A stretch of 64,000 nucleotides of DNA from Bradyrhizobium sp. CB2312 (GTDB lineage: Bacteria; Pseudomonadota; Alphaproteobacteria; Rhizobiales; Xanthobacteraceae), in assembly GCF_029714425.1 (NCBI RefSeq), contig NZ_CP121668.1, positions 4,051,501 to 4,115,500 on the forward strand. Reading direction: 5' to 3'. Below, in pieces: positions 4,124-22,185 of the stretch (positions are counted from its first letter, which is position 1; every line of letters starts with the position of its first letter). Both the position numbers and the translations under genes were made by a program. The notes under the pieces are model-generated. The model was not told the DNA's origin. It did not search any database and saw nothing but the letters and a program-made list of their open reading frames with translations.

Positions 4124-4711
4124 CTAGGCGTGACCCGTCTTCCGGGCCGCCTCGACCAGGCCGAGCGCCAGCGCGCCGGCCGTCTCTACATAAGCGAGAT
4201 CGCGATGGATCAGCATCACGGTCGTGGCGCCGTCGAGCAGGATCAGGAGCTGGCGTGCGAGCGCGGCCGCGCCGGGAACGCCATGCTGCGTCAGCTCCGC
4301 CTCTAGCCAGGCTTCGAAGCGCTTCTTGTGCGCGGCGCCGGCCTTGACGGCCGGATGGGCCGGCGTGTTGGCGAGCTCGGCGATGGTGCGCAGGAAGCCG
4401 CAGCCGCGCCAGCGCGGGGTGTCGACGGAGCGCCCGAGCTTGACGAAGAGGCCTCGGACCTTTTCGGCCACGGTGCCGTCGGTCTCGGCGAACCAGCGCT
4501 TGTAGAGCTCCAGCGTCGGCTGGTCCCTGGCGGCGATGGTCTCGGCGACGAGCTCGTCCTTGCTGGTGAAGTGATAGTAGAGCGTCTTCTTGGTGACGCC
4601 GGCCTTCTCGGCGACGGCGTCCATGCTCACCGCCCTGATGCCCTCGCCATAGAACAGGCGCGTCGCCGCGACGACGATCTGCTCGCGTGTGCTGTCACCC
4701 TTCTCGGACAT
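4124..4711 (-). CDS. TetR/AcrR family transcriptional regulator
   Basis: 195 aa. The N-terminus has a textbook TetR DNA-binding domain (TREQIVVAATRLFYGEGIRA...VSMDAVAEKAGVTKKTLYYHFTSKDELV, residues about 7-56). The C-terminal ligand domain resembles TetR_C proteins next to efflux pumps. The frame stays open much further upstream, but the ATG at 4711 starts exactly at the conserved domain, and an inverted-repeat operator sits just ahead of it, so longer starts are rejected. It precedes the Bcr/CflA pump on the same strand and is divergent from the enoyl-CoA hydratase at 4799. Likely role: autoregulated repressor of the pump and possibly of the divergent gene. Confidence 0.88.
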   Translation of the reverse strand: MSEKGDSTREQIVVAATRLFYGEGIRAVSMDAVAEKAGVTKKTLYYHFTSKDELVAETIAARDQPTLELYKRWFAETDGTVAEKVRGLFVKLGRSVDTPRWRGCGFLRTIAELANTPAHPAVKAGAAHKKRFEAWLEAELTQHGVPGAAALARQLLILLDGATTVMLIHRDLAYVETAGALALGLVEAARKTGHA

Positions 4712-5791: not shown

Positions 5792-7156
5792 TTGGACGTG
5801 TCTGACGTTACCGGGACAGCACGATGGGTAGGGCCGGCGGGCATGGCCGGGAAGCGCAACGTCTGGCACGACTGCGTGGTTGCGCTGGTGGCGCTGCTGG
5901 TGCTCGGCAATCTCGTCAGCGATCTCACGCTCGATGTGAACTTCGGCTGGGACGTGCGCGTCAATTGCGCGGCGGTCGATGCCCATGTCGATGGGCTCGA
6001 TCCCTACTTCGTGAAAAATCTGAAGGGTACGAAATTCTCTTATCCTTATCTGCCGGTGACGCTCGAGGCGTTCCGTCCGCTGTGCGCGGGCGGCTTTCTC
6101 GTCGGCCATCACCGCGGCGTGTTTCTCCTGCTCGCCATGCTCTGCGGCCTGCTGCTACCGGGGCTCGGCCGCGACCGCGGCGGCTTTCGCGATATCGGGT
6201 TGAGGGTGCTCTGGGCGCTCGGCGCCTTCGTCGGCTTCGAGTGGGTCTTGGCGTCGGGCAACTTTACCATCATGAGCGGCACGCTGAGCGCGGGCGCGCT
6301 GGCCCTGCTGCTGCGTCGTTTCCCTTTGCCGGACGCGGACGATGATCGAAGCTTCGGCCTGCGCATCGTCGGCGCTGCTCTGCTCGGCCTCGTTGCCTCG
6401 TTCAAGCTGGTGTACAGTCCGGTGCTGGCCGCGCTGTATTTCCTGCCGCTACCGCGCCGGCAGAAGATCGGCTTGATCGCGGCCGCGGCCGCAGGCCTGG
6501 CGCTGCCGGTCCTGCTCTCGATGGTCCTCTATCCCGATCTGTTTCCGAGCTGGCTGCTCGCGATCAGGGGGCAGATTCCCGACCAGCATACGGTCTACGT
6601 GATGGACACCACGCCGTCGCTGCTGCTGCTGGCGCAGGGCGCGCTCGATCAATTCGGGCTCGGCGGCAGCAAGCCGATCGTGTTCGCGGCTTACGCGCTC
6701 GTGGCGTTCGCGCTGGTGCTTGCGCCGTTGGCTCTTGTGGTGCTGCGCCTGGCGAATGGACGAGCAAGTCGGGAAGGCGCTTTCCTGGCACGACTGGATC
6801 GCTGGCTGATCGACCATCCGCGCGAGGCCCTGCGCATCACTGTGCTGGCGATGTACGGGCTCTATCTCTGCGCGCCGCGCCTGAAGGAATATGCCTTCTT
6901 CGAGCTCGCGCTCTACGGTGCCATCCTCATCGTCGATCTCCCGGCCGCAGCCCTCGCCGCCGTCCTGGCCATCGGCGTCGCCGTTCCAATGCTCGCCTCG
7001 CTCGCGGGAATGTCGATCGAAAACAGCTTCGTGCAGATCGCGGTCGCGCTGGCGTGCTTCTGGATCATGCTGCGGGCCCAATCGGCGCCATCAGCTCCAG
7101 TGGTGCGGGCAGCCGGGGTCGAACCGGCACAGCGCTTGCGCACCGAGGGATTTTAA
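5792..7156 (+). CDS. GT87-type (DUF2029) polytopic glycosyltransferase
   Basis: 454 aa with about ten hydrophobic helices. Early FGWDVRVNCAAVDAHVDGLDPY and SYPYLPVTLEAFRPL motifs, then repeated long apolar segments, match the GT87 mannosyl/arabinosyltransferase-like family (C-type, polyprenyl-phosphate sugar donors). The TTG at 5792 is the most upstream start after a stop; GTG 5798 or ATG 5843 are alternatives. The 3' end is unusual: the last 17 or so residues are read through sequence antisense to tRNA-Leu and the stop codon (7154-7156) falls inside the tRNA anticodon loop. The tail is hydrophilic and probably dispensable. Confidence 0.75.
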   Translation: MDVSDVTGTARWVGPAGMAGKRNVWHDCVVALVALLVLGNLVSDLTLDVNFGWDVRVNCAAVDAHVDGLDPYFVKNLKGTKFSYPYLPVTLEAFRPLCAGGFLVGHHRGVFLLLAMLCGLLLPGLGRDRGGFRDIGLRVLWALGAFVGFEWVLASGNFTIMSGTLSAGALALLLRRFPLPDADDDRSFGLRIVGAALLGLVASFKLVYSPVLAALYFLPLPRRQKIGLIAAAAAGLALPVLLSMVLYPDLFPSWLLAIRGQIPDQHTVYVMDTTPSLLLLAQGALDQFGLGGSKPIVFAAYALVAFALVLAPLALVVLRLANGRASREGAFLARLDRWLIDHPREALRITVLAMYGLYLCAPRLKEYAFFELALYGAILIVDLPAAALAAVLAIGVAVPMLASLAGMSIENSFVQIAVALACFWIMLRAQSAPSAPVVRAAGVEPAQRLRTEGF

Positions 7157-7809: not shown

Positions 7810-9012
7810 TCACGGCCGCCAGAAGTAGATCCAGTCCTGCCGCGCCAGCATGCGCTCCGGGCCGAGCGCGCGGATCGCGACATCGCGCGCGAGCGCGAGC
7901 GGCCCGCCCAGATGGTAGATGCGGCCCTGCTGCCGCGCGGTCCGCTGCACCCGCCGCACGCGCGCCTCGCGCGCGCGGCCATATTGCTTCAGCGCCGCCG
8001 TGATGCCGGCTGCGCTCTCGGCGGCTTCGGGACTGAGATGGCGCGCCAGCACGGCGGCATCCTCGATCGCCATGCCGGCGCCTTGCGCTGCGAACGGCAG
8101 CATCGCATGCACGGCATCGCCGAGCAGCGCGACCGGGCCCTTGCTCCAGGGGCAGCCGTCGGGCACGCCGAACAGCGCCCATTTGCGCCAGCTATCGACC
8201 GCGGCGAGCATCATCCGCGCCGGCGGCGGCCAGCGCGGCGCGGCGAAGGCGTCCATCACCTCAAGGGGATCGCCGGGCGTGCTCCAGCCCGGCCTGTTCC
8301 AGGTGCCCGGCAGCACTGCGACCACGTTGATCTGGCGCCCGCCCGCGATCGGATAGGCGACGAGATGGGCATTTCGGCCCATCCAGAGCTGCACCCGGCG
8401 GGCGGTGTAGTCCTTCGGCAACTGCGTGGCGTCCAAGGTGCCGCGCCAGGCGATCAGGCCGGAGAAGCGCGGCTGCACCTCGGGAAACAGATGCTGGCGT
8501 ACCGTCGACCAGATGCCGTCGGCGCCGATCAGCGCGCTGGCGAGATCGCTGCGGCGGATCGTGCCGCTGCGATGGACCACGGTCAGCCCCTTGGCGTGCG
8601 GCGCGACGTCCTCGAAGGTCGCCCCCAATTTCAGGTCGATGTCGGGATGATCTGAGACAGCGCCGGCCAGCGCCGATTGCAGGTCGGCACGGTGCACCAC
8701 CCAATAGGGGGCGCCGGCGCGCGCCGACGCCGCTTCGCCGAGCGGCATGCGCAAGAGCTCGCCGCCGGCGCGCGCGCTCATGATCGAGACCGCCTCCGGC
8801 GTCACGGCGCGCAGCTTGAGGCGCTCGGCGAGGCCGAGCTCGACCAGCACGCGGCTGGCATTGGGGGAGAGTTGCAGGCCGGCGCCGACTTCCTCGAGCC
8901 GCTCGGTCTTTTCCAGCACGACGATGCGGAAGCCGCGGGCCGCGAGCGCCAGCGCGGCCGTCAATCCACCGATGCCGGCACCGGCGATGACAATCGTTCG
9001 GGAGAGCGCCAC
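7810..9012 (-). CDS. FAD-dependent monooxygenase (salicylate/3-hydroxybenzoate hydroxylase type)
   Basis: 400 aa, typical for class A flavoprotein monooxygenases. The N-terminus holds the Rossmann FAD motif GAGIGGL (residues about 11-17), the middle the ADGIWSTVR (DG) motif, and the C-terminal third the second FAD motif GDAVHAMLPFAAQGAGMAIEDA. SPNASRVL and YWVVHRADL are also characteristic of salicylate 1-monooxygenase and 3-hydroxybenzoate 6-hydroxylase relatives. It should hydroxylate an aromatic acid with NAD(P)H and O2; the substrate cannot be fixed from sequence. The gene lies 19 bp downstream of the zinc-finger gene, so the two are probably co-transcribed. Confidence 0.85.
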   Translation of the reverse strand: MALSRTIVIAGAGIGGLTAALALAARGFRIVVLEKTERLEEVGAGLQLSPNASRVLVELGLAERLKLRAVTPEAVSIMSARAGGELLRMPLGEAASARAGAPYWVVHRADLQSALAGAVSDHPDIDLKLGATFEDVAPHAKGLTVVHRSGTIRRSDLASALIGADGIWSTVRQHLFPEVQPRFSGLIAWRGTLDATQLPKDYTARRVQLWMGRNAHLVAYPIAGGRQINVVAVLPGTWNRPGWSTPGDPLEVMDAFAAPRWPPPARMMLAAVDSWRKWALFGVPDGCPWSKGPVALLGDAVHAMLPFAAQGAGMAIEDAAVLARHLSPEAAESAAGITAALKQYGRAREARVRRVQRTARQQGRIYHLGGPLALARDVAIRALGPERMLARQDWIYFWRP

Positions 9013-14215: not shown

Positions 14216-14434
14216 GTGGACGTCAAAGAAGTCAGAAAGCTGGACGCGTATCTGAAGCGCGTATTCGGCAATCCCAAGATCCGCGTCGTACCGCGGCCGA
14301 AGAAGGATGATTCCGCCGAGGTCTATATCGGCGAGGAATTCATCGGCGTGCTCTTCGTCGACGACGAGGACGACGATCGCTCGTTCCAGTTCCAGATGGC
14401 GATCCTCGAGGACGATCTCGTCGATCAGGAATAG
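14216..14434 (+). CDS. DUF3126 family protein
   Basis: 72 aa, starting at GTG 14216 with GGAGA eight bases upstream. The sequence KLDAYLKRVFGNPKIRVVPRPKKDDSAEVYIGEEFIGVLFVDDEDDDRSFQFQMAIL matches the small alphaproteobacterial DUF3126 family, function unknown. It is acidic and soluble. The close spacing after cysE is a common arrangement of this family in Bradyrhizobium relatives, although the hairpin in between suggests separate transcription. Confidence 0.85.
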   Translation: MDVKEVRKLDAYLKRVFGNPKIRVVPRPKKDDSAEVYIGEEFIGVLFVDDEDDDRSFQFQMAILEDDLVDQE

Positions 14435-14519
14435 TTTTTCAACGCGGTGATCGCGAGCGGAGCTGAGTCTTCGCCGTGCTCGCAATGAGCCGTGCGGCGA
14501 CAGCGCGGCGTCCTCTCGT

Positions 14520-14570
14520 GTCCCGGCTCTGCACTGCAACGCCCTTAGCGTTGCAGTGCAGAGCCGGGAC
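14520..14570. repeat. Perfect long hairpin (23-bp arms), intergenic palindrome
   Basis: The arms 14520-14542 and 14548-14570 are exact inverted complements over 23 bases, beginning GTCCCGGCTCTGC, with a 5-base loop. It is directly followed by a second, imperfect palindrome (14603-14654, outer arms GCCCCGG/CCGGGGC). These resemble intergenic palindromic repeats common in Bradyrhizobium genomes. Confidence 0.85.
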
Positions 14571-14718
14571 CCAGAAGCCATACGGCGCATATCCGCAACA
14601 TTGGCCCCGGCTCAGCAGCGCACCGTCGAAGAGACGCTGCGCTGCGTCCGGGGCACGCATCGGAGATCGAGGCGCGTTCTCCCCACATGAGGAACGTTAG
14701 CTCCGCAATCCCGTAACT

Positions 14719-15115
14719 CTATCTCTTCGCGAGAATGCGCAGCCGCGCCGTGGCGTCGGCGACGATGATGCCCTCGGCATCGACGAGCTCGGCGTGTACG
14801 ACCATGTCGCGCTCCGTCCGTTCGACAACGCGCGCGCGTGCGATGATCGGACCGACCGATGCAGGCTTGTGAAAGCGCGTGTCGAGACCCCTGGTGACTA
14901 CGGTCAGGTCAGCCGGGAGCCGCAGCCAGCGCGCAAATCCCGGTCGCGGAATCCAGCATCGCCGCCAGGAATCCGCCCTGAACGGTCCCGTGCCTGTTGG
15001 TGAACGCGAGCTGCGCCTGAAAGCGGATCAACGCTTGCCCGGCCTCGTCGAAGCCGACCCATTCGCGTCCGAGCAATTGGGCGCCGGGTGGCAGATTGGG
15101 TGTCGCGTCGCTCAC
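14719..15115 (-). pseudogene. PaaI-type (hotdog) thioesterase, frameshifted copy
   Basis: Near-duplicate of the intact gene at 20340-20735. From a GTG at 15115 the product reads SDATPNLPPGAQLLGREW and continues in step with the intact copy to GICALAA; then the frame hits TGA at 14909-14911. The rest of the protein (LTVVTRGLDTRF ... ATARLRILAKR, stop 14719-14721) is in another frame. Comparison shows 13 bases where the intact copy has 12, that is, one extra base between about 14911 and 14930. Conserved hotdog features such as FTNRHGTVQGGFLAAMLD are intact. It is a pseudogene unless the extra base is a sequencing error. Confidence 0.85.
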
Positions 15116-15242
15116 ATCGATCTTCCCCGGCGTTTTCCTTAAAGAAGAGGGTACCAAGCAGCCGATCCGGTGCAAGGTCTGGCAGCGCTGATGCTCATCG
15201 GCAACAATCTGTGAGTAGGGTGCGTGATCGCGCGTATGTAGA

Positions 15243-15752
15243 GTGACAACGCTCCCAGATCATTGGTCCGATATGCACGCAGACTCTCTCGAGATTGCCC
15301 GCCTCACCGAAGAGTCGGGTCTGTCGAAGACAATCGCCGCGCTTCAGTTTGCGTTTTGGGGCCCGCTGACAGGGTATGGCTCGGCCGCCGACTATGAGCA
15401 GTTTCTTTGCCATGCGGCTCGTTCGCACCATCTGCCGGAAATTCTGGTCGCCCGGTGCGGCACGACCTTTGTTGGCTCGGTCAATCTGCTCGCCAGCGAG
15501 ATGACGATACGTCCTGCACTTTCGCCGTGGATGGCGCAGCTGTTCGTGCCCGACAGCGCGCGGAGTCAAGGTGTCGGAAACGCGCTCATTGAAGCTGCCG
15601 TGGCAAAGGCTGCGGCGCTGGGCCATCGACGGATATATCTCTACACCTCGGGGACATTGCCGGGCTACTATGCTTCCCGCCGCTGGCAGCCGGTCGAGGA
15701 GGTCGAATATCTCGGCAAGAGGCGCGTCATCATGGCTTATGATCTGGCTTGA
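15243..15752 (+). CDS. GNAT family N-acetyltransferase
   Basis: Up to 169 aa from GTG 15243; the ATG at 15273 (MHADSLEIARL) is a plausible shorter start. The acetyl-CoA-binding signature is visible as LSPWMAQLFVPDSARSQGVGNALIEAAVAKAAALGHRRIYLYTS, with the R/Q-G-x-G-x pyrophosphate loop as RSQGVG. GYYASRRWQPVEE is the usual C-terminal beta-bulge region. Acceptor substrate unknown. It lies within the segment bounded by the two thioesterase copies. Confidence 0.8.
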   Translation: MTTLPDHWSDMHADSLEIARLTEESGLSKTIAALQFAFWGPLTGYGSAADYEQFLCHAARSHHLPEILVARCGTTFVGSVNLLASEMTIRPALSPWMAQLFVPDSARSQGVGNALIEAAVAKAAALGHRRIYLYTSGTLPGYYASRRWQPVEEVEYLGKRRVIMAYDLA

Positions 15753-15859
15753 TAGCAAAAAAATGCACTCAAGCTGTCCTGCTGGCGTGAGCCGTACGCC
15801 CGTGGCCCTTGCGTTCGACCAATTCAACGCCGATCTCTTGAGTTGCGCACGGTTCTCCG

Positions 15860-16027
15860 TCACGCGCCCACCGCTGCGAGCATGTCGGGGATCGTGACGA
15901 ATTTCTCCCGCTGCTTGCCGAGCAGCGCTCCCCTGCGTTTCTCGGCGGCGTCGATCGTGCCCCAATCCGGATAGCTCACGATGCGTGCCACGCGGCCGGT
16001 GCTGATCCGATTGTGATAAGCGCTCAC
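15860..16027 (-). pseudogene. C-terminal scrap of an FAD/NADP reductase-like protein
   Basis: A 55-codon frame whose GTG overlaps the cupin stop codon (GTGA overlap). Its second half, SYPDWGTIDAAEKRRGALL followed by GKQREKFVTIPDMLAAVGA, resembles the extreme C-terminus of adrenodoxin-reductase-type ferredoxin-NADP reductases (pattern W..ID.AE...G...GR.R.K......ML). Nothing upstream encodes the FAD or NADP domains, so I read it as a remnant fused behind the cupin gene. It could be translated by coupling, but as a functional protein it is doubtful. Confidence 0.4.
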
Positions 16028-16377
16028 TCGAAATGGACGGCGAGCCAGACCGTTGGCTGTTGCGGCTCCGTCCACTCGACGCGATGGCGTTTCCTTGCGG
16101 GGATGAAGACGTAATCCCCCACGCCCAGCGATCGCGCGGCAAGCTCATGTTCGAACTGCAATGTGGCGCGCCCTTTCAGCACGATCACCCACTCGTTCCA
16201 CGCCTGATCATACCAGAAGCCCGGCGGACTAGTTTGCCCCTGCGATATAATGCGCTCGATCTTCAAGCCAGGCCGCGCGAGGATTTCGCTGAACGCCTCT
16301 TCCCCTATGTTGGCGGCCGAAACATCCGCCACATCCGTGAATAGATTGCCTGGCTGGATTGTCATCGATATTCCCAC
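16024..16377 (-). CDS. Cupin domain protein
   Basis: 117 aa; the ATG at 16365 (MTIQPGNLF) is an alternative start. A single double-stranded beta-helix: GFWYDQAWNEWVIVLKGRATLQFEHE (cupin motif 1, degenerate) and GVGDYVFIPARKRHRVEWTEPQQPTVWLAVHF (motif 2, with an H-R-V histidine). The metal-binding set of motif 1 is incomplete, because Q and N stand where two His are usual. Similar proteins are annotated as cupins of unknown function. Part of the thioesterase-bounded segment. Confidence 0.75.
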   Translation of the reverse strand: MGISMTIQPGNLFTDVADVSAANIGEEAFSEILARPGLKIERIISQGQTSPPGFWYDQAWNEWVIVLKGRATLQFEHELAARSLGVGDYVFIPARKRHRVEWTEPQQPTVWLAVHFE

Positions 16378-16482
16378 GCGTTTCCAGAGCCGAATTACCT
16401 ACAAGCCCACGTAGCGCCCCATTCAGGTCCGTTCAACGGCGCATAGCGGACTGGATTTGCTCACGTTGAGTTCTTCGCATTT

Positions 16483-18144
16483 TGACCCTGGCTGTGTGAA
16501 AAGTCACGAGTCGGCTAGGATTCTTCCGTTTCCTGATGGGGGATACGGATGGGACGCTTCGTTGAAGGCGCGGACAGATCCCAGCTGACGCTCTTGCCGG
16601 AATGTCTGGAGGATTGGGTAGGCGAGGACAACGCGGTCCACGTGATCGATGTGTTCGTCGAGGCGCTCGACCTGCATGGAATGGGGTTTGAGCGTGTGAT
16701 CGCCAAGGAGACGGGCCGGCCCTCCTATCATCCGGCAGTCCTTCTGAAGCTTTACATCTACGGTTATCTCAATCGGCTGCAATCCAGTCGCCGCCTGGAA
16801 CGTGAGACGTGCCGCAATGTCGAGGTAATGTGGCTGATTGGGCGCCTGGCTCCCGATCACAAGACGATCGCCGATTTCCGGAAGGATAACGGCGCGGCGA
16901 TCCGGAAGGTTTGCGCGAAGTTCGTTGCACTATGCCGGCAAATGGGCCTGTTGCAGACCGCAAGCGTCGCAATCGACGGCAGCAAGTTCAAGGCGGTGAA
17001 CAACCGCGACCGCAACTTCACGCATGCCAAGATGGCAAGGCGGATGGCGCAGATCGAGGAAAGCGTCGGTCGATATCTGCGTCAACTCGATAGCGCCGAT
17101 CGGCAGGAGCCATCGGAAGCGATCAGCATCAAGACGACGAGGATCAAGGAAAAGATCGCTCGGCTGAAGCAGGAGATGAGCCGCCTGGAAGTGCTTGATG
17201 CGCAGATGCGCAACACGCCGGATCAACAGATATCGCTGACCGATCCGGATGCCCGTTCGATGGCCACCAGCGGACGCGGATCGGGTGTCGTCGGCTACAA
17301 CGTCCAGGTCGCGGTGGACACCGAACACCATCTGATTGTGACGCACGAGGTCATAAACGTCGGCAACGACCGTGGGCAGCTTGCTCGGATGTCGAAGCAG
17401 GCCAAAGAAGTGCTCGCAGTGGACAAACTCGATGCGGTCGCCGATCGTGGCTACTTCGACGGAGAGGAGATATTGGCCTGCGAAGAGGCTGGCGTTGCAG
17501 TCACCTTGCCCAAGCCCATGACGTCGAACGCCAAGGCGGAGGGCCGGTTCGGCAAACAGGACTTCGCCTACCTGCCTGATGAGGATGTCTACCGCTGCCC
17601 ATCGGGCCAGCTGCTGCCCTATCACTTCACCAACATCGAGCATGGAATGACGCTGCGCCGTTACTGGTCGACGGCGGCATGCCAAGGCTGCGCGATCAAG
17701 AGCCAATGTACGCCGTCCAAGGAGCGCCGGATCACGCGCTGGGAGCATGAGCATGTGGTCGAGGAGGTCCAGCGACGGCTCGATTCCAATCCTGACGCCA
17801 TGCGGACGCGACGTGAGACAGTCGAGCATCCCTTCGGCACGATCAAAGCCCGTATGGGTGCGACCCACTTCCTGATGAAGCGCCTACGGAATGTCGCCGC
17901 TGAGATGGCGCTGCATGTTCTCGCCTATAACCTCACACGGGTGATGAACATCGTCGGCAAACCGCGCCTGATTGCAGCCATCCGCGCCGCCTGAAGGCCG
18001 GAAAGCGCGTCCAAAACCGCAATACCCCGTCGCGATACCCACTTTGGCCGGTCATTGGACGATCCGATGCGTCAGCACCGGCCGCCTGCAATGATTGGCG
18101 ACCACGCCGCGTCCGACCTATCCGTTTGCACACAACCAAGACCC
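16483..18144 (+). mobile_element. IS1182-family insertion sequence
   Basis: A single transposase gene bracketed by imperfect terminal inverted repeats: left TGACCCTGGCTGTGTGAAAA (16483-16502) and right TTTGCACACAACCAAGACCC (18125-18144), matching at 14 of 20 positions when one is inverted. Length about 1.66 kb fits the family. No target-site duplication was obvious, so the exact ends are uncertain by a few bases. Confidence 0.75.
16549..17994 (+). CDS. IS1182-family DDE transposase
   Basis: 481 aa, full length and without lesions. The N-terminal DUF772/InsH-type domain (GRPSYHPAVLLKLYIYGYLN, residues about 57-75) is followed by the DDE core: first Asp in VAIDGSKFKAV (D143), second in AVADRGYFDGEE (about D299), and Glu in RRETVEHPFGTIK (about E426). 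A Cys-rich insert (CPSGQ...CQGCAIKSQC) sits between the second D and the E, as usual for IS1182 relatives. The element may therefore still be mobile. Confidence 0.93.
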   Translation: MGRFVEGADRSQLTLLPECLEDWVGEDNAVHVIDVFVEALDLHGMGFERVIAKETGRPSYHPAVLLKLYIYGYLNRLQSSRRLERETCRNVEVMWLIGRLAPDHKTIADFRKDNGAAIRKVCAKFVALCRQMGLLQTASVAIDGSKFKAVNNRDRNFTHAKMARRMAQIEESVGRYLRQLDSADRQEPSEAISIKTTRIKEKIARLKQEMSRLEVLDAQMRNTPDQQISLTDPDARSMATSGRGSGVVGYNVQVAVDTEHHLIVTHEVINVGNDRGQLARMSKQAKEVLAVDKLDAVADRGYFDGEEILACEEAGVAVTLPKPMTSNAKAEGRFGKQDFAYLPDEDVYRCPSGQLLPYHFTNIEHGMTLRRYWSTAACQGCAIKSQCTPSKERRITRWEHEHVVEEVQRRLDSNPDAMRTRRETVEHPFGTIKARMGATHFLMKRLRNVAAEMALHVLAYNLTRVMNIVGKPRLIAAIRAA

Positions 18145-18240
18145 GAAGCGGACGTGTTGGCTCACCAAAGCGGTTTAATGCGGATGCCATCCGTGGCTCC
18201 CCACTGGAACATTGACTGCCCATGGCTCATATTCGGCACC

Positions 18241-18549
18241 ATGGGTTTTCTGAGATTTTCGTTTAAGTCTAGGCGGCGCGCCATTGCCTATTACGCGGTG
18301 GCCATACCTATGATGATTTTGTTCATCTACGGTGCAAGCCGGTTTGGAGAGGGGCCTATACGTGAGTGCGCGACCGGCAACTGTCTCCCGCACGATTGTC
18401 GTAGCGCCTATTGTTCAACACGCGGCTATCCCCATACTGCCGATGAATATCGGGCGTTCAAAGACTGGGAGACGACCATCTTTGTTGTCTGGCCGATTGG
18501 CATGATTGCGTTGGCCCTTCTGAGATGGACAGATAAACGAAGGCAATGA
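18241..18549 (+). CDS. Small two-helix membrane protein, unknown
   Basis: 102 aa from the ATG at 18241; the frame is open further upstream into the insertion-sequence end, which argues for this start, although no good ribosome site is visible. Two hydrophobic segments (AIAYYAVAIPMMILFIYGA and TTIFVVWPIGMIALALLRW) flank a loop with four Cys (ECATGNCLPHDCRSAYC), so a disulfide-bonded periplasmic loop is possible. I do not recognise the family. Confidence 0.5.
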   Translation: MGFLRFSFKSRRRAIAYYAVAIPMMILFIYGASRFGEGPIRECATGNCLPHDCRSAYCSTRGYPHTADEYRAFKDWETTIFVVWPIGMIALALLRWTDKRRQ

Positions 18550-18610
18550 TTTCCATTCGCAAGTAGCTCCTGCTGGTTGTCTATTCGTATCAATCCTGAG
18601 AAGTCGCCTG

Positions 18611-19504
18611 TTGGCCCATCGGCGAAGTTGCGCCGCGCCCAGCGCCCGGCGGATCGCGATCCTCTGGGATTCGACATACGAGCAGCATAAGGTCGCTATG
18701 CCGTCGATCGAGGCGGCGGCGCAGAAGCTGGCGGTCACATTGCAACTCGTGCCCGCCAGAACGGCCGAGGAGTTTGATACCGCGTTCGCTAGCGCTGCCG
18801 TTCCCGCTCTATCTCGTATCTTTGCCCTTGCTGTTGAATACGCTGCTGCTCTTGATGCCGCAGGTATTCAAGGTATTGATTCCTGATCAGTTGCTTCTGT
18901 GAGTCCGATACAAAAGGATTGGAAGGGTCTAAGGAACGTTCAACCTGCTCACGGTAGGCGTTCTCGTCGCGGTAAGCGAGTCCGGACCAGGATTGCTGGC
19001 GGATAGTCCTGTTCCAATCCGAAGATTGGGCATGAATAGGCGATAGTGTGATCAGGACAAAGACTAGGGCTATCGTAACACGATTCATTACTAATCCTCT
19101 TCTCTGCTTTCACTACCAGTGCCCCACCCGCAACCACAGGCAATAGTGACGTATCTACTATTCCGCGATGGATAGGGCGCACGCCGAAGCCGTGGTGGCG
19201 CTTGGCCCGTCGCTTGCTTACAGCCATCGGGCGCGTTTGGGCGACCTTGCGCGCGAGCACCGTCTGCCGAGCGTGCTTCTTAGCGATGCAGGCGGTCTCT
19301 TGAGTTACATGCCTAACATCAAAGCCATTTTCGGCCAATGCGCCGGTTACGTCGACAAGAATCCTCAAGGGCGCCAAGGCTTCCGATCTGCCCGTCCAGG
19401 AGCCGACCAAAATTGATCTGATTGTCAATCTAAACATCGCCAAGACGCTGGGTATCACAATCCCGCCATCGATCCTCGCCCGCGCCGACGAGGTGATCGA
19501 GTGA
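18611..19504 (+). pseudogene. ABC transporter substrate-binding protein (TrpX/ABC_sub_bind type), split remnant
   Basis: The left piece (about 18640-18795) encodes RRIAILWDSTYEQHKVAMPS...KLAVTLQLVPARTAEEFDTAFAS, and the right piece (from about 19165) DRAHAEAVVALG..YSHRARLGDLAREHRLPS..AGGLLSYMPN...GYVDK. After one extra base near 19365 it continues as ILKGAKASDLPVQEPTKIDL ... ARADEVIE and stops at 19502-19504. Together they give the middle and C-terminal parts of a tryptophan/tyrosine-type ABC binding protein. The N-terminus and signal peptide are missing, about 370 bp of foreign sequence splits it, and there is a frameshift. Confidence 0.8.
18789..19088 (-). CDS. Small exported protein inside the ABC pseudogene
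   Basis: 99 aa with a clear signal peptide (MNRVTIALVFVLITLSPIHAQ, cleavage after HAQ). The mature part is polar, ending in a Gln/Arg-rich helix (YLEYLRHQEQQRIQQQGQRYEIERERQR) that could form a coiled coil. No family recognised. The gene occupies the roughly 370-bp insertion that interrupts the substrate-binding-protein pseudogene, and its last codons abut the left junction. It therefore came with the inserted cassette or evolved within it. Confidence 0.55.
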   Translation of the reverse strand: MNRVTIALVFVLITLSPIHAQSSDWNRTIRQQSWSGLAYRDENAYREQVERSLDPSNPFVSDSQKQLIRNQYLEYLRHQEQQRIQQQGQRYEIERERQR

Positions 19505-19753
19505 ACCTTGTATTTCCGGTTATGGCCCTTAGCGTCGAACCTCAATCCTCATCTTGGCGTCAGCTCTTTGGCGTAGACCGGACCTAGTCATGGTCCCAGC
19601 TGATCGACGAGAATGACCCCGAACAGACATTGCATGCGTGCGCCCATTTGATCGAACGCGTAGAAGTGCGGCTAGTCTCGGGGACTGCAATTGACGGGCG
19701 CCAATGGCGGGCGTGATCGACCGATACGCAGCTAAATTATCTCGACTTGTCGC

Positions 19754-20152
19754 TTACCGAGATCCAAACCGCTGTTTGGCAGCGTCGGTAACGGGAGTAT
19801 ACAGGCTAACCAGCGTGCCCTCGGGGTCACGGAATTGAACTGCGCGATTGCCCCACGGCAAATTCTTCGGTTCGTGAACGACTTCGACTTGGCCCTTCAA
19901 TCGTTCAAACTCGGCATCAACGTCCGTCACTTGAAATTCGATGATTGCCGTACGGTTGGCGGCGGGTTCGGCGCTTCCTTCCTTGAAGAGAGCGACAGTC
20001 TCCGCGCTTCCGACGGCGACTGCGGCTGTTGGAGTCACGATCTCGGCGAAGACGGGTGCGAGCCAATCGGCCGTCTTGCCTGTTACCTCTTCGTAGAATC
20101 CGACCACGGCTTTGATGTCGCGGGCGATCAGACGTATTGAGGCGAAGTTCAT
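19754..20152 (-). CDS. VOC (glyoxalase/bleomycin-resistance fold) protein
   Basis: 132 aa from ATG 20152 (MNFASIRLIARDIKAVVGFYEEVTG), the natural start of a single VOC domain; longer upstream reading is rejected. beta-alpha-beta-beta-beta units are visible: SIRLIARDIKAVVGFYEEVTG ... FKEGSAEPAANRTAIIEFQVTDVDAEFERLKGQ ... NRAVQFRDPEGTLVSLYTPV. Metal-ligand positions appear only partly conserved. Function unknown, possibly a lyase or a resistance protein. A 24-bp palindrome lies about 55 bp upstream. Confidence 0.75.
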   Translation of the reverse strand: MNFASIRLIARDIKAVVGFYEEVTGKTADWLAPVFAEIVTPTAAVAVGSAETVALFKEGSAEPAANRTAIIEFQVTDVDAEFERLKGQVEVVHEPKNLPWGNRAVQFRDPEGTLVSLYTPVTDAAKQRFGSR

Positions 20153-20205
20153 GAACCCAGTTCCTTCTGAATGTTTCAGCGCTTCCGTCGAGCAGTATCG
20201 CCCCA

Positions 20206-20229
20206 CTGCTGACAGCATGCTGTCAGCAG
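20206..20229. promoter_or_regulatory. Perfect 24-bp palindrome upstream of the VOC gene
   Basis: Two 12-base arms, the first CTGCTGACAGCA, are exactly self-complementary. It lies 54-77 bp upstream of the VOC start codon and downstream of the thioesterase stop. Perfect symmetry without a loop suggests a dimeric regulator operator rather than a terminator. Confidence 0.55.
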
Positions 20230-20339
20230 CCTCCTGCTTCACGGCAGTGACGTTTTTACCCGCGGCCTTCGGAGGAGCCTTTCGTCCGGCAGCGCGGTCG
20301 CTGTGCCTTTGCCACTGGTTGCGCCTGCGGCTTCGAGAT

Positions 20340-20735
20340 CTACTTCTTTGCGAGAATGCGCAGCTGCGCAGTGGCGTCGGCGACGATGATGCCCTCGGCA
20401 TCGACGAGCTCGGCGTGTACGACCATGTCGCGCTCCGTCCGTTCGGTAACGCGCGCGCGTGCGATGATCGGACCGACCGATGCGGGCTTCAGGAAGCGCG
20501 TATCGAGACTTCTTGTGACGACGGTCAGTTCGGATGTGAGCGCCGCCAGCGCGCAAATCCCGGTGGCGGAGTCCAGCATCGCAGCAAGAAAGCCGCCCTG
20601 GATCGTTCCGTGCCTGTTGGTGAAATCGAGCTGCGCCTGGAAGCGGATCAGTGCGTGCCCGCTCTCGTCAAAGCCAAGCCATTCGCGTCCGAGCAGCTGG
20701 GCACCGGGCGGGAGAGGTGTTGCCGCGTCATTCAC
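20340..20735 (-). CDS. PaaI-type (hotdog) thioesterase, intact copy
   Basis: 131 aa starting at GTG 20735. The hotdog fold of the PaaI/YdiI-like acyl-CoA thioesterases is shown by FTNRHGTIQGGFLAAMLDSATGICALAAL (the helix and HGxxQGG catalytic region), LDTRFLKPASVGPIIARARVTERTERDMVVHAELVDAEGIIVADATAQLRI. It probably hydrolyses aryl or short acyl-CoA esters. The frameshifted copy at 14719-15115 is its near-twin, in the same orientation 5.6 kb to the left. Confidence 0.85.
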   Translation of the reverse strand: MNDAATPLPPGAQLLGREWLGFDESGHALIRFQAQLDFTNRHGTIQGGFLAAMLDSATGICALAALTSELTVVTRSLDTRFLKPASVGPIIARARVTERTERDMVVHAELVDAEGIIVADATAQLRILAKK

Positions 20736-20929
20736 GTCGATCGCCCCATGATGACATCATGCCACTGTTTTGCCCGACGGGTCAAGTTCTTCTTCGAAAA
20801 ATACGAATTCATGAAAATACGAAGCCATGACAGGCGCTTGGCTACTGTGCATGGGGTTGTTTTCAATTTTTTGTCGGGAGGCTCCCGGCTCGTCCCAAGC
20901 CGATCCCGCGGCGGGCAGGGAAGTCGCGC

Positions 20930-21637
20930 TCAGCCCTTCGGCCCGCGCAGCTGCGTCGTCAGCTTCTCCATCGCCTCTGCCACCTCGCGCCATTGCGACA
21001 GCCAGCTGCGCGGAAAGCGGAAGGTGAGGTCGGCGCCGCCGACGCGGCGCTCGGAGAGGCACATGCCGGGGGTCGCCGCATCGCGGGTGCAACGCGCGGT
21101 CAGCGCGGGGTTTGTCGCGGAATAGAAATCCTCGCTGCCGTAAGGTGTGTCGGCGCGGAACATCCGCATCGTCAGACCATCCTCGGGCTGGGTGGTGGCC
21201 TGGTCGAGATAGCGCGGATAGATCGTGGTTGTTCGCTGCTCGGGCGAGAGCGCATCGTGGTGGGCTGCGATCGACAGGAAGATGCGGTCGATCGATTGTA
21301 CCGCGGCTTCCACCGTGTCGGCGGTAACGTGCTTCGGCGCGCCGGGCGGTTCCAGCGAGGGATAGAGGAAGTCGAGATCGATGCGCTCCTGCGGCCCGGT
21401 GTGCCGCTGGATCTTCATCCGGATCGCCGCCGCCGGCAGGTTGAACAGCGTGCCGCCGACGCTGACCGGCAGCTTGTCCGGCGCACTCGCGCCGCCCGTG
21501 CCCCAGGTCGGCCACAGCAGGTAGGCCACCAGCGCGACCGCGCCCGCCGCAGCAATGCCGCCGAGCACGATCGGGACGACATGCGCCAGGGTGCGCGTCC
21601 GGGGAGACCTGAGGGGAGCTGCCGAAAACATCGTCAT
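20930..21637 (-). CDS. Membrane-anchored protein of unknown function
   Basis: 235 aa from ATG 21637 (MTMFSAAPLR); an ATG at 21694 would add 19 residues, and neither start has a strong ribosome site. A single N-terminal helix (VVPIVLGGIAAAGAVALVAYLLW) anchors a periplasmic domain with DLDFLYPSLEPPG, TTIYPRYLD, GSEDFYSATN and two Cys (ARCTRDAATPGMC) that may pair. It resembles hypothetical proteins found throughout Bradyrhizobium; no function is known to me. Confidence 0.7.
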   Translation of the reverse strand: MTMFSAAPLRSPRTRTLAHVVPIVLGGIAAAGAVALVAYLLWPTWGTGGASAPDKLPVSVGGTLFNLPAAAIRMKIQRHTGPQERIDLDFLYPSLEPPGAPKHVTADTVEAAVQSIDRIFLSIAAHHDALSPEQRTTTIYPRYLDQATTQPEDGLTMRMFRADTPYGSEDFYSATNPALTARCTRDAATPGMCLSERRVGGADLTFRFPRSWLSQWREVAEAMEKLTTQLRGPKG

Positions 21638-21855
21638 GGGTTGCGCGAGCCGGAGGTCGGCCGCTGGCCGACGAATCAGCGGCGAATATGCCATGCGGCA
21701 GCGATTTCGCGCAGCGTCCCCCGCCTGCGGGGAACGGGAAGGGCCCTGCGCGGGCCGGCCGGCGGCGTTAACCTTCCCTTAAGGATAATGTAGCGTTAAC
21801 CAGCACTTTTTGTCACAGGAAGGCTCCTCGCGTTGCGTAAGGGCGGACTGTTCCG

Positions 21856-22185
21856 ATGACACCTGAAGCTCTCAATACCTTCTTCTCGATCTGCATCGGT
21901 TTCGCGCTCGCGGGCGCCCTCGTGAACGGATATCAGGCCGCGACGCAGCGGCCTGCCGGATTCGGCCTGTTGCAGGCCGGCGTCGCGCCGAAGACCTTCG
22001 CGGCGGTACCGTTCCTGGTGTTCGCGGCGCCCTTCATCATCATGCGCAACACGCTGCGCGGCATGCGGCTGGAAAGCCGCCGCCTCGAGTTCGTGATGAT
22101 GGCGACCCTCATCGCCGCCTTCTGGAGCATGATGAGCGGCACCTTCTTCCTGATGACGCTGCGCGCGGCCGGCGTGCTGGCCTGA
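21856..22185 (+). CDS. Small conserved membrane protein
   Basis: 109 aa with about three hydrophobic segments (TFFSICIGFALAGALVNGYQAA, AAVPFLVFAAPFIIMRNTLRG, FVMMATLIAAFWSMMSGTFFLMTL). Similar proteins of about this length are widespread in Rhizobiales and unstudied; I am not certain of the DUF number. It starts at ATG 21856. The carbonic anhydrase follows about 90 bp later on the same strand and may share its transcript. Confidence 0.75.
   Translation: MTPEALNTFFSICIGFALAGALVNGYQAATQRPAGFGLLQAGVAPKTFAAVPFLVFAAPFIIMRNTLRGMRLESRRLEFVMMATLIAAFWSMMSGTFFLMTLRAAGVLA

Follow-up and report, generated by a model that had tools for sequence, protein, structure and literature searches.

Two thioesterase copies in a Bradyrhizobium gene-turnover hotspot: diverged alleles, a recombinant left copy and a mosaic segment between them

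Why should one small thioesterase gene stand twice, in the same orientation and 5.6 kb apart, at a single chromosomal spot? The question is raised by a stretch of 64,000 nucleotides from the soil bacterium Bradyrhizobium sp. CB2312 (contig NZ_CP121668.1, positions 4,051,501 to 4,115,500; hereafter the window), in which two copies of a hotdog thioesterase (TE) gene enclose a segment of small genes, gene scraps and an insertion sequence (IS). A first-pass annotation, made from the letters alone, had proposed either a duplication or an insertion with gene capture. We compared both copies, their flanks and the segment with other Bradyrhizobium genomes, which are referred to below by G handles, and their loci by L handles.

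The left copy is a recombinant of two alleles

The left copy, TE_L (14718-15122, minus strand), and the right copy, TE_R (20339-20742, minus strand; reading frame 20340-20735), align over 405 columns at 86% identity with a lone single-base gap. Exact runs of 75 bases from 14750 and 36 bases from 14827 bear out the long identical stretches seen at first pass. The offset between the copies drops from 5621 ahead of the gap to 5620 beyond it, so TE_L has one extra base, as had been claimed; base-by-base alignment identifies it as C 14920 or 14921, within a CC. The TE_R frame is open over 131 amino acids and scores 50 bits with Pfam 4HBT (PF03061), versus a cut-off of 20.6. TE_L is read in two overlapping frames, covering query residues 2-68 and 60-131, neither of which has an internal stop, and its 88-amino-acid frame alone gives no Pfam match.

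A tract common to both copies (14750-14862, corresponding to 20371-20483 in TE_R) has 2 differences in 113 positions. The copies share a run of 50 identical polymorphic sites (permutation p 2e-4), which ranks fifth longest of 528 pairs, with an overall identity below that of the four pairs above it. Over 20371-20484 they are 97.4% identical, second of the 528 pairs and tied with one other.

We built trees from 33 TE sequences, namely TE_L, TE_R and 31 from other genomes, each matching over at least about 300 bases; they place the two parts of TE_L differently. In the left part (162 columns), TE_L and TE_R are sisters with support 100/96, and G008 comes next (96/88). In the right part (175 columns), TE_L groups with G096 (97/94), its closest relative there at 95% identity, and TE_R joins G011 (92/88) inside a group of G008, G034 and others, in keeping with the plain-site character of TE_R. 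Because its left part is sister to TE_R and its right part groups with G096, TE_L is a recombinant, and the two copies are diverged alleles of one gene. Approximately unbiased (AU) tests, for which the G096 pairing was chosen after tree inspection, reject TE_L with G096 in the left part (p 4e-5) and TE_L with TE_R in the right part (p 0.029). A single-breakpoint permutation test for a change from TE_R-like to G096-like sequence is significant at p 5e-5 and puts the break at 14942-14945; taking G008 as the left parent moves it to 14884-14888. Since TE_L departs from TE_R from 14864 on, the breakpoint zone is 14864-14945, which also holds the extra base.

A gene-turnover hotspot with a plain site in relatives

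The copies lie between two genes found nearly throughout the genus. The left anchor is a DUF3126 gene (14216-14434, plus strand; Pfam PF11324, 110 bits) and the right anchor is a gene at 20930-21694 (minus strand) without a Pfam match; a genus-wide search found them in 264 and 262 of 265 Bradyrhizobium genomes, respectively. Interval sizes were taken from the strongest 136 DUF3126 matches and the strongest 131 right-anchor matches, with weaker ones, mostly from more distant genomes, left out. Both sets contained 130 genomes, 8 of which were dropped with their anchors on separate contigs. In the resulting 122 genomes, window included, the anchors are identically oriented in every case, and they stand between 24 and 19,688 bp apart (median 2.1 kb; 6501 bp in the window). 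The neighbouring gaps are nearly constant, at 121-162 bp between cysE and DUF3126 (34 loci), 159-176 between the right anchor and the gene at 21856 (35 loci), and 80-170 between the latter and gCA (19 loci), as measured at 64 loci in all with certain genomes counted twice. Because the interval varies widely in size while the gaps beside it stay nearly fixed, it is a gene-turnover hotspot of the genus, with small gene sets varying by species.

Among the cargo carried by other intervals are oxidoreductases, transporters, regulators of the LysR and AraC types, serine hydroxymethyltransferase- and aminotransferase-type enzymes, and caspase-domain proteins. A thioesterase at E 1e-20 or better is found in 65 of the 265 genomes, and thioesterase similarity in 43 of 125 compared intervals; a single match covers 118 residues or more in 30 of them, and the similarity is partial in 13. 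In the named collection, the best 33 loci with a related thioesterase (L038-L070, among the best 80) are all Bradyrhizobium. Integrase families are absent among the Pfam matches listed for 58 of 80 open-reading-frame cluster representatives (25 of 59 in one listing). As for defence cargo, PADLOC matched one of 10 hotspot proteins scanned, to a caspase model; this caspase-domain protein (L210:2819-4855; Pfam PF00656) belongs to a single-linkage cluster of 50 frames across 28 interval loci. A tRNA lies within one of the 59 interval loci scanned (L223), and a tRNA-driven island was rejected here, as the tRNA scan found none inside the window's own interval.

Some other loci also contain more than one thioesterase stretch. 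L196 (G049) has copies at 560-952 and 2474-2836, the right one 62% identical to TE_R and with an internal stop. At 466-1103 of L164 (G185), two thioesterase C-terminal scraps enclose a GNAT stretch, which recalls the window's left side in decayed form. L223 (G029) holds complementary thioesterase parts at 4231-4374 and 7883-8143, 3.5 kb apart as if split by an insertion, and its tRNA, a tRNA-Ser, lies at 6750-6825.

Relatives with a single thioesterase and no segment, which the first-pass annotation had suggested looking for, do exist: G008 and G034 have such a plain site. When the window's outer flanks are joined at the shared tract, they align end to end with G008 at 89.7% over 1866 columns and with G034 at 87.9% over 1870 columns. 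None of the 124 other intervals carries both copies with the same intervening genes (tblastn). The left flank of TE_L (14435-14717) is of plain-site type, with 84-86% identity to both G008 and G034 across some 255-270 bp, and to the right of TE_L stands the sequence of the TE-GNAT haplotypes (G096, G049, G245). To the left of TE_R, the glyoxalase gene and the glyoxalase-TE spacer (20153-20338) are 93-97% identical to a third gene set (G052, G055, G071), a match that falls off at the TE stop codon, TE_R itself being only about 81% identical to those records. To its right is the common right flank of the hotspot (114 matches), with G008 nearest. When the 33 TE sequences were classed by flank, each window copy was the sole holder of its combination: TE_L has a left flank as in G008/G034 and a right flank as in G033/G049/G096/G113/G245, and TE_R a left flank as in G052/G055/G071 and a right flank as in G008/G034 and ten others. 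G008 and G034 have the plain combination. The interval is a mosaic, with the plain site in relatives.

Within the left flank, 14520-14570 holds a perfect inverted repeat (23-bp arms, 5-bp loop), which looks like a palindromic repeat element; the 185 bp around it stand after DUF3126 in G112, G132 and G022 too.

The contents listed at first pass, an IS, a split pseudogene, a reductase scrap and small accessory genes, were all recovered, and decayed pieces fill the segment as had been said. Beside TE_L is a GNAT acetyltransferase gene (15243-15752, plus strand; Pfam PF00583), 84-87% identical to G096 and with its best overall match in G262 (84% over 462 bp); together with the sequence just past TE_L, it resembles the TE-GNAT haplotypes (G096, G245, G049). 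A stretch of 65 bp at 15773-15837 is like sequence in nine other intervals and, when its minus strand is read by eye, recalls the helix-turn-helix of a LysR regulator; compared at the protein level with one LysR protein, 15756-15859 showed no match. The reductase scrap (15860-15995, minus strand; 93% to G052) represents the C-terminal end of a pyridine nucleotide-disulphide oxidoreductase that is longer in other intervals. All 16 of its blastp matches fall in the C-terminal 38-53 residues of oxidoreductases of 434-562 amino acids, and the one matched protein scanned, in L228, contains Pyr_redox_2 (Pfam). A cupin gene (16024-16377, minus strand; Pfam PF07883) is 97.7% identical to G052, G146 and G212.

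The IS is an IS1182-family element (16484-18141, plus strand; NCBIfam 448 bits versus a cut-off of 270), with ends taken from a comparison of 8 copies and a transposase at 16549-17994. Nine other full copies at 99-100% identity stand in the genome, which suggests recent activity of the element. On its left, some 45 bp are similar to sequence that stands alone at many other places in the genome. Further right, 18632-19539 is a fragment of an already split ABC_sub_bind gene and a 96% copy of G000:3437648-3438550, about 0.63 Mb away. Since that copy is interrupted identically, the break probably predates the copying. The name comes from a fuller copy elsewhere in the genome; the window pieces themselves lack a Pfam match. 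The glyoxalase gene (19754-20152, minus strand; Pfam PF00903) is 95.8-97.2% identical to the third set, and five short frames of the segment have no Pfam match.

The window matches L049 (B. huanghuaihaiense) at 97.8% in the cupin piece and 96.7% in the glyoxalase piece, and at 89.6, 92.4 and 95.2% in the conserved genes nearby. Because the former exceed the latter, the comparison suggests that the third gene set was transferred between species.

Possible origins of the segment

We hold it probable, with moderate confidence, that homologous recombination at TE stacked foreign hotspot content in a resident TE, with scraps and IS1182 added. A resident TE would have occupied the plain site. Foreign content, namely a G096-type TE right part with its GNAT gene, and the reductase scrap, cupin and glyoxalase of the third set, would have recombined at TE and ended up with a recombinant copy on its left and a copy of plain-site type on its right, with blunt joins, scraps and an IS completing the segment. 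The plain-type sequence would now be represented by the left part of TE_L and by TE_R, and both outer sides would be of plain-site type because the insertion, as proposed, occurred at TE. We infer that the resident TE was the recombination target, and likewise how many events there were and in what succession; more than one step may well have been involved, as glyoxalase and GNAT flank one TE in none of the genomes compared. The near-identity over 113 bp may be resident sequence on both sides or the mark of later gene conversion. A crossover within it would excise about 5.6 kb, with one TE remaining, and such a deletion is plausible since the repeat is long and alike enough.

Several observations weigh against recombination at a resident TE, among them the absence of any compared genome combining both flanking genes around one TE. 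Positions 14864-14941 of TE_L are close to neither parent, and the TE_L frameshift may be a sequencing error. Nine tests detected no break inside TE_R (p 0.14-1.0), so that its change of affinity is visible only as the drop in match at the TE stop codon. The 185 bp of left flank that also match G112, G132 and G022, at 89-90%, are not specific to G008 and G034. The identity excess of the third set is modest, at 96.7% with the most similar conserved gene at 95.2%. Only 3 of 125 intervals (the window, G049 and G185) have two TE stretches over one and the same gene part, and among the 31 remaining genomes no significant tracking of flanks by TE parts is seen (p 0.17).

The alternative that survives best is stepwise assembly, in which several joins, most of them illegitimate, united two diverged TE alleles, the 113-bp tract reflects later gene conversion, and TE was a bystander rather than the integration target. 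The row of scraps (GNAT, reductase C terminus, cupin) with blunt joins favours such a course, as does the lack of a one-step donor among the genomes compared. However, it needs one separate reason for both outer flanks being of plain-site type, and another for the glyoxalase-side match dropping exactly at TE. We regard it as possible, and clearly less probable than recombination at TE.

A simple tandem duplication of TE, with the left copy later diverging and decaying, would account for copies that are 86% alike and sisters in their left part. The similarity does not, however, reach past the gene: alignment of the flanks scores 21 and 18, versus 522 for the gene itself. Nor are the copies closest relatives along the whole gene, as evidenced by the grouping of the right part of TE_L with G096 and the rejection of TE_L with TE_R there. 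We rejected this origin as very improbable. Of the two proposals made at first pass, insertion with capture is supported and simple duplication is not, the sequence outside the coding region being unlike at the two copies.

Carriage of the segment by IS1182 is suggested by the near-identical element within it and seems more doubtful still: the segment contains a lone copy, the other nine full copies lie elsewhere, and the TE borders are not IS ends. A composite transposon was rejected as well, the segment not being bounded by two IS copies. An assembly or sequencing artefact is the least credible account, since the genome is one contig of 9.78 Mb and copies with 14% differing columns and different flanks are not expected from a doubled assembly, even if the frameshift alone, a single base in a CC, could still be an error.

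If recombination at TE is extended beyond the window, the thioesterase would become a recombination hinge, at which gene sets could be swapped or stacked without integrases and from which stacked sets could pop out via the shared tract. Because many alternative sets carry a TE allele, they would be swappable by homologous recombination at TE. In other genomes, the idea is matched by one complete quartet of flank combinations, made up of left classes 0 and 2 with right classes 0 and 2, and G049 and G185 also have two same-part TE stretches; the wider test of TE part against flank is the one given above, with p 0.17. We consider the extension unlikely. As a general crossover point in other genomes, TE was rejected on that non-significant result.

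Meaning and relation to known systems

What appeared as two copies becomes a readable trace of the exchange of small gene sets between species at one fixed chromosomal spot, and similar neighbouring genes need not mean duplication. Should the hinge prove true, accessory genes within hotspots would count as exchange points alongside the conserved flanking genes. No publication naming this locus turned up, as judged by titles and abstract openings, and it may be described elsewhere. The thioesterase itself falls in the 4HBT hotdog family (PF03061), an assignment made by sequence, with TE_R above the cut-off and TE_L frameshifted.

Mechanistically, the locus resembles known systems in part. In homology-facilitated illegitimate recombination (PMC3240628), a homologous join at one end is paired with a blunt join at the other. 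Such a process would explain the scraps; here, however, both segment ends lie at the thioesterase gene. The tandem duplications of Johnston et al. 2013 (PMC3784515) carry a hybrid repeat and arise by unequal exchange in transformation, when a repeat pairs with the wrong partner. TE_L is like them in being a hybrid of two related repeats at a junction. Those duplications, in contrast, comprise about 100-900 kb of the cell's own chromosome between IS repeats, whereas the segment here is 5.6 kb with foreign parts.

There is also a likeness to the hotspots of Oliveira 2017 (PMC5635113), in which accessory genes of rapid turnover are set among conserved genes whose order is constant. That paper reports that recognizable mobile elements are missing from many such hotspots and that recombination is frequent in the core genes beside them. 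The interval shares their variable accessory content and fixed-order conserved genes, as seen in the common orientation of all 122 pairs of anchors and the range of 24-19,688 bp between them, and the window locus is a clear further example of the hotspots already described. It differs in that the exchange point with evidence here, TE being the only gene examined for recombination, is an accessory gene inside the hotspot. Such an exchange point, which would go beyond the known systems, is no more than suggested by our results.

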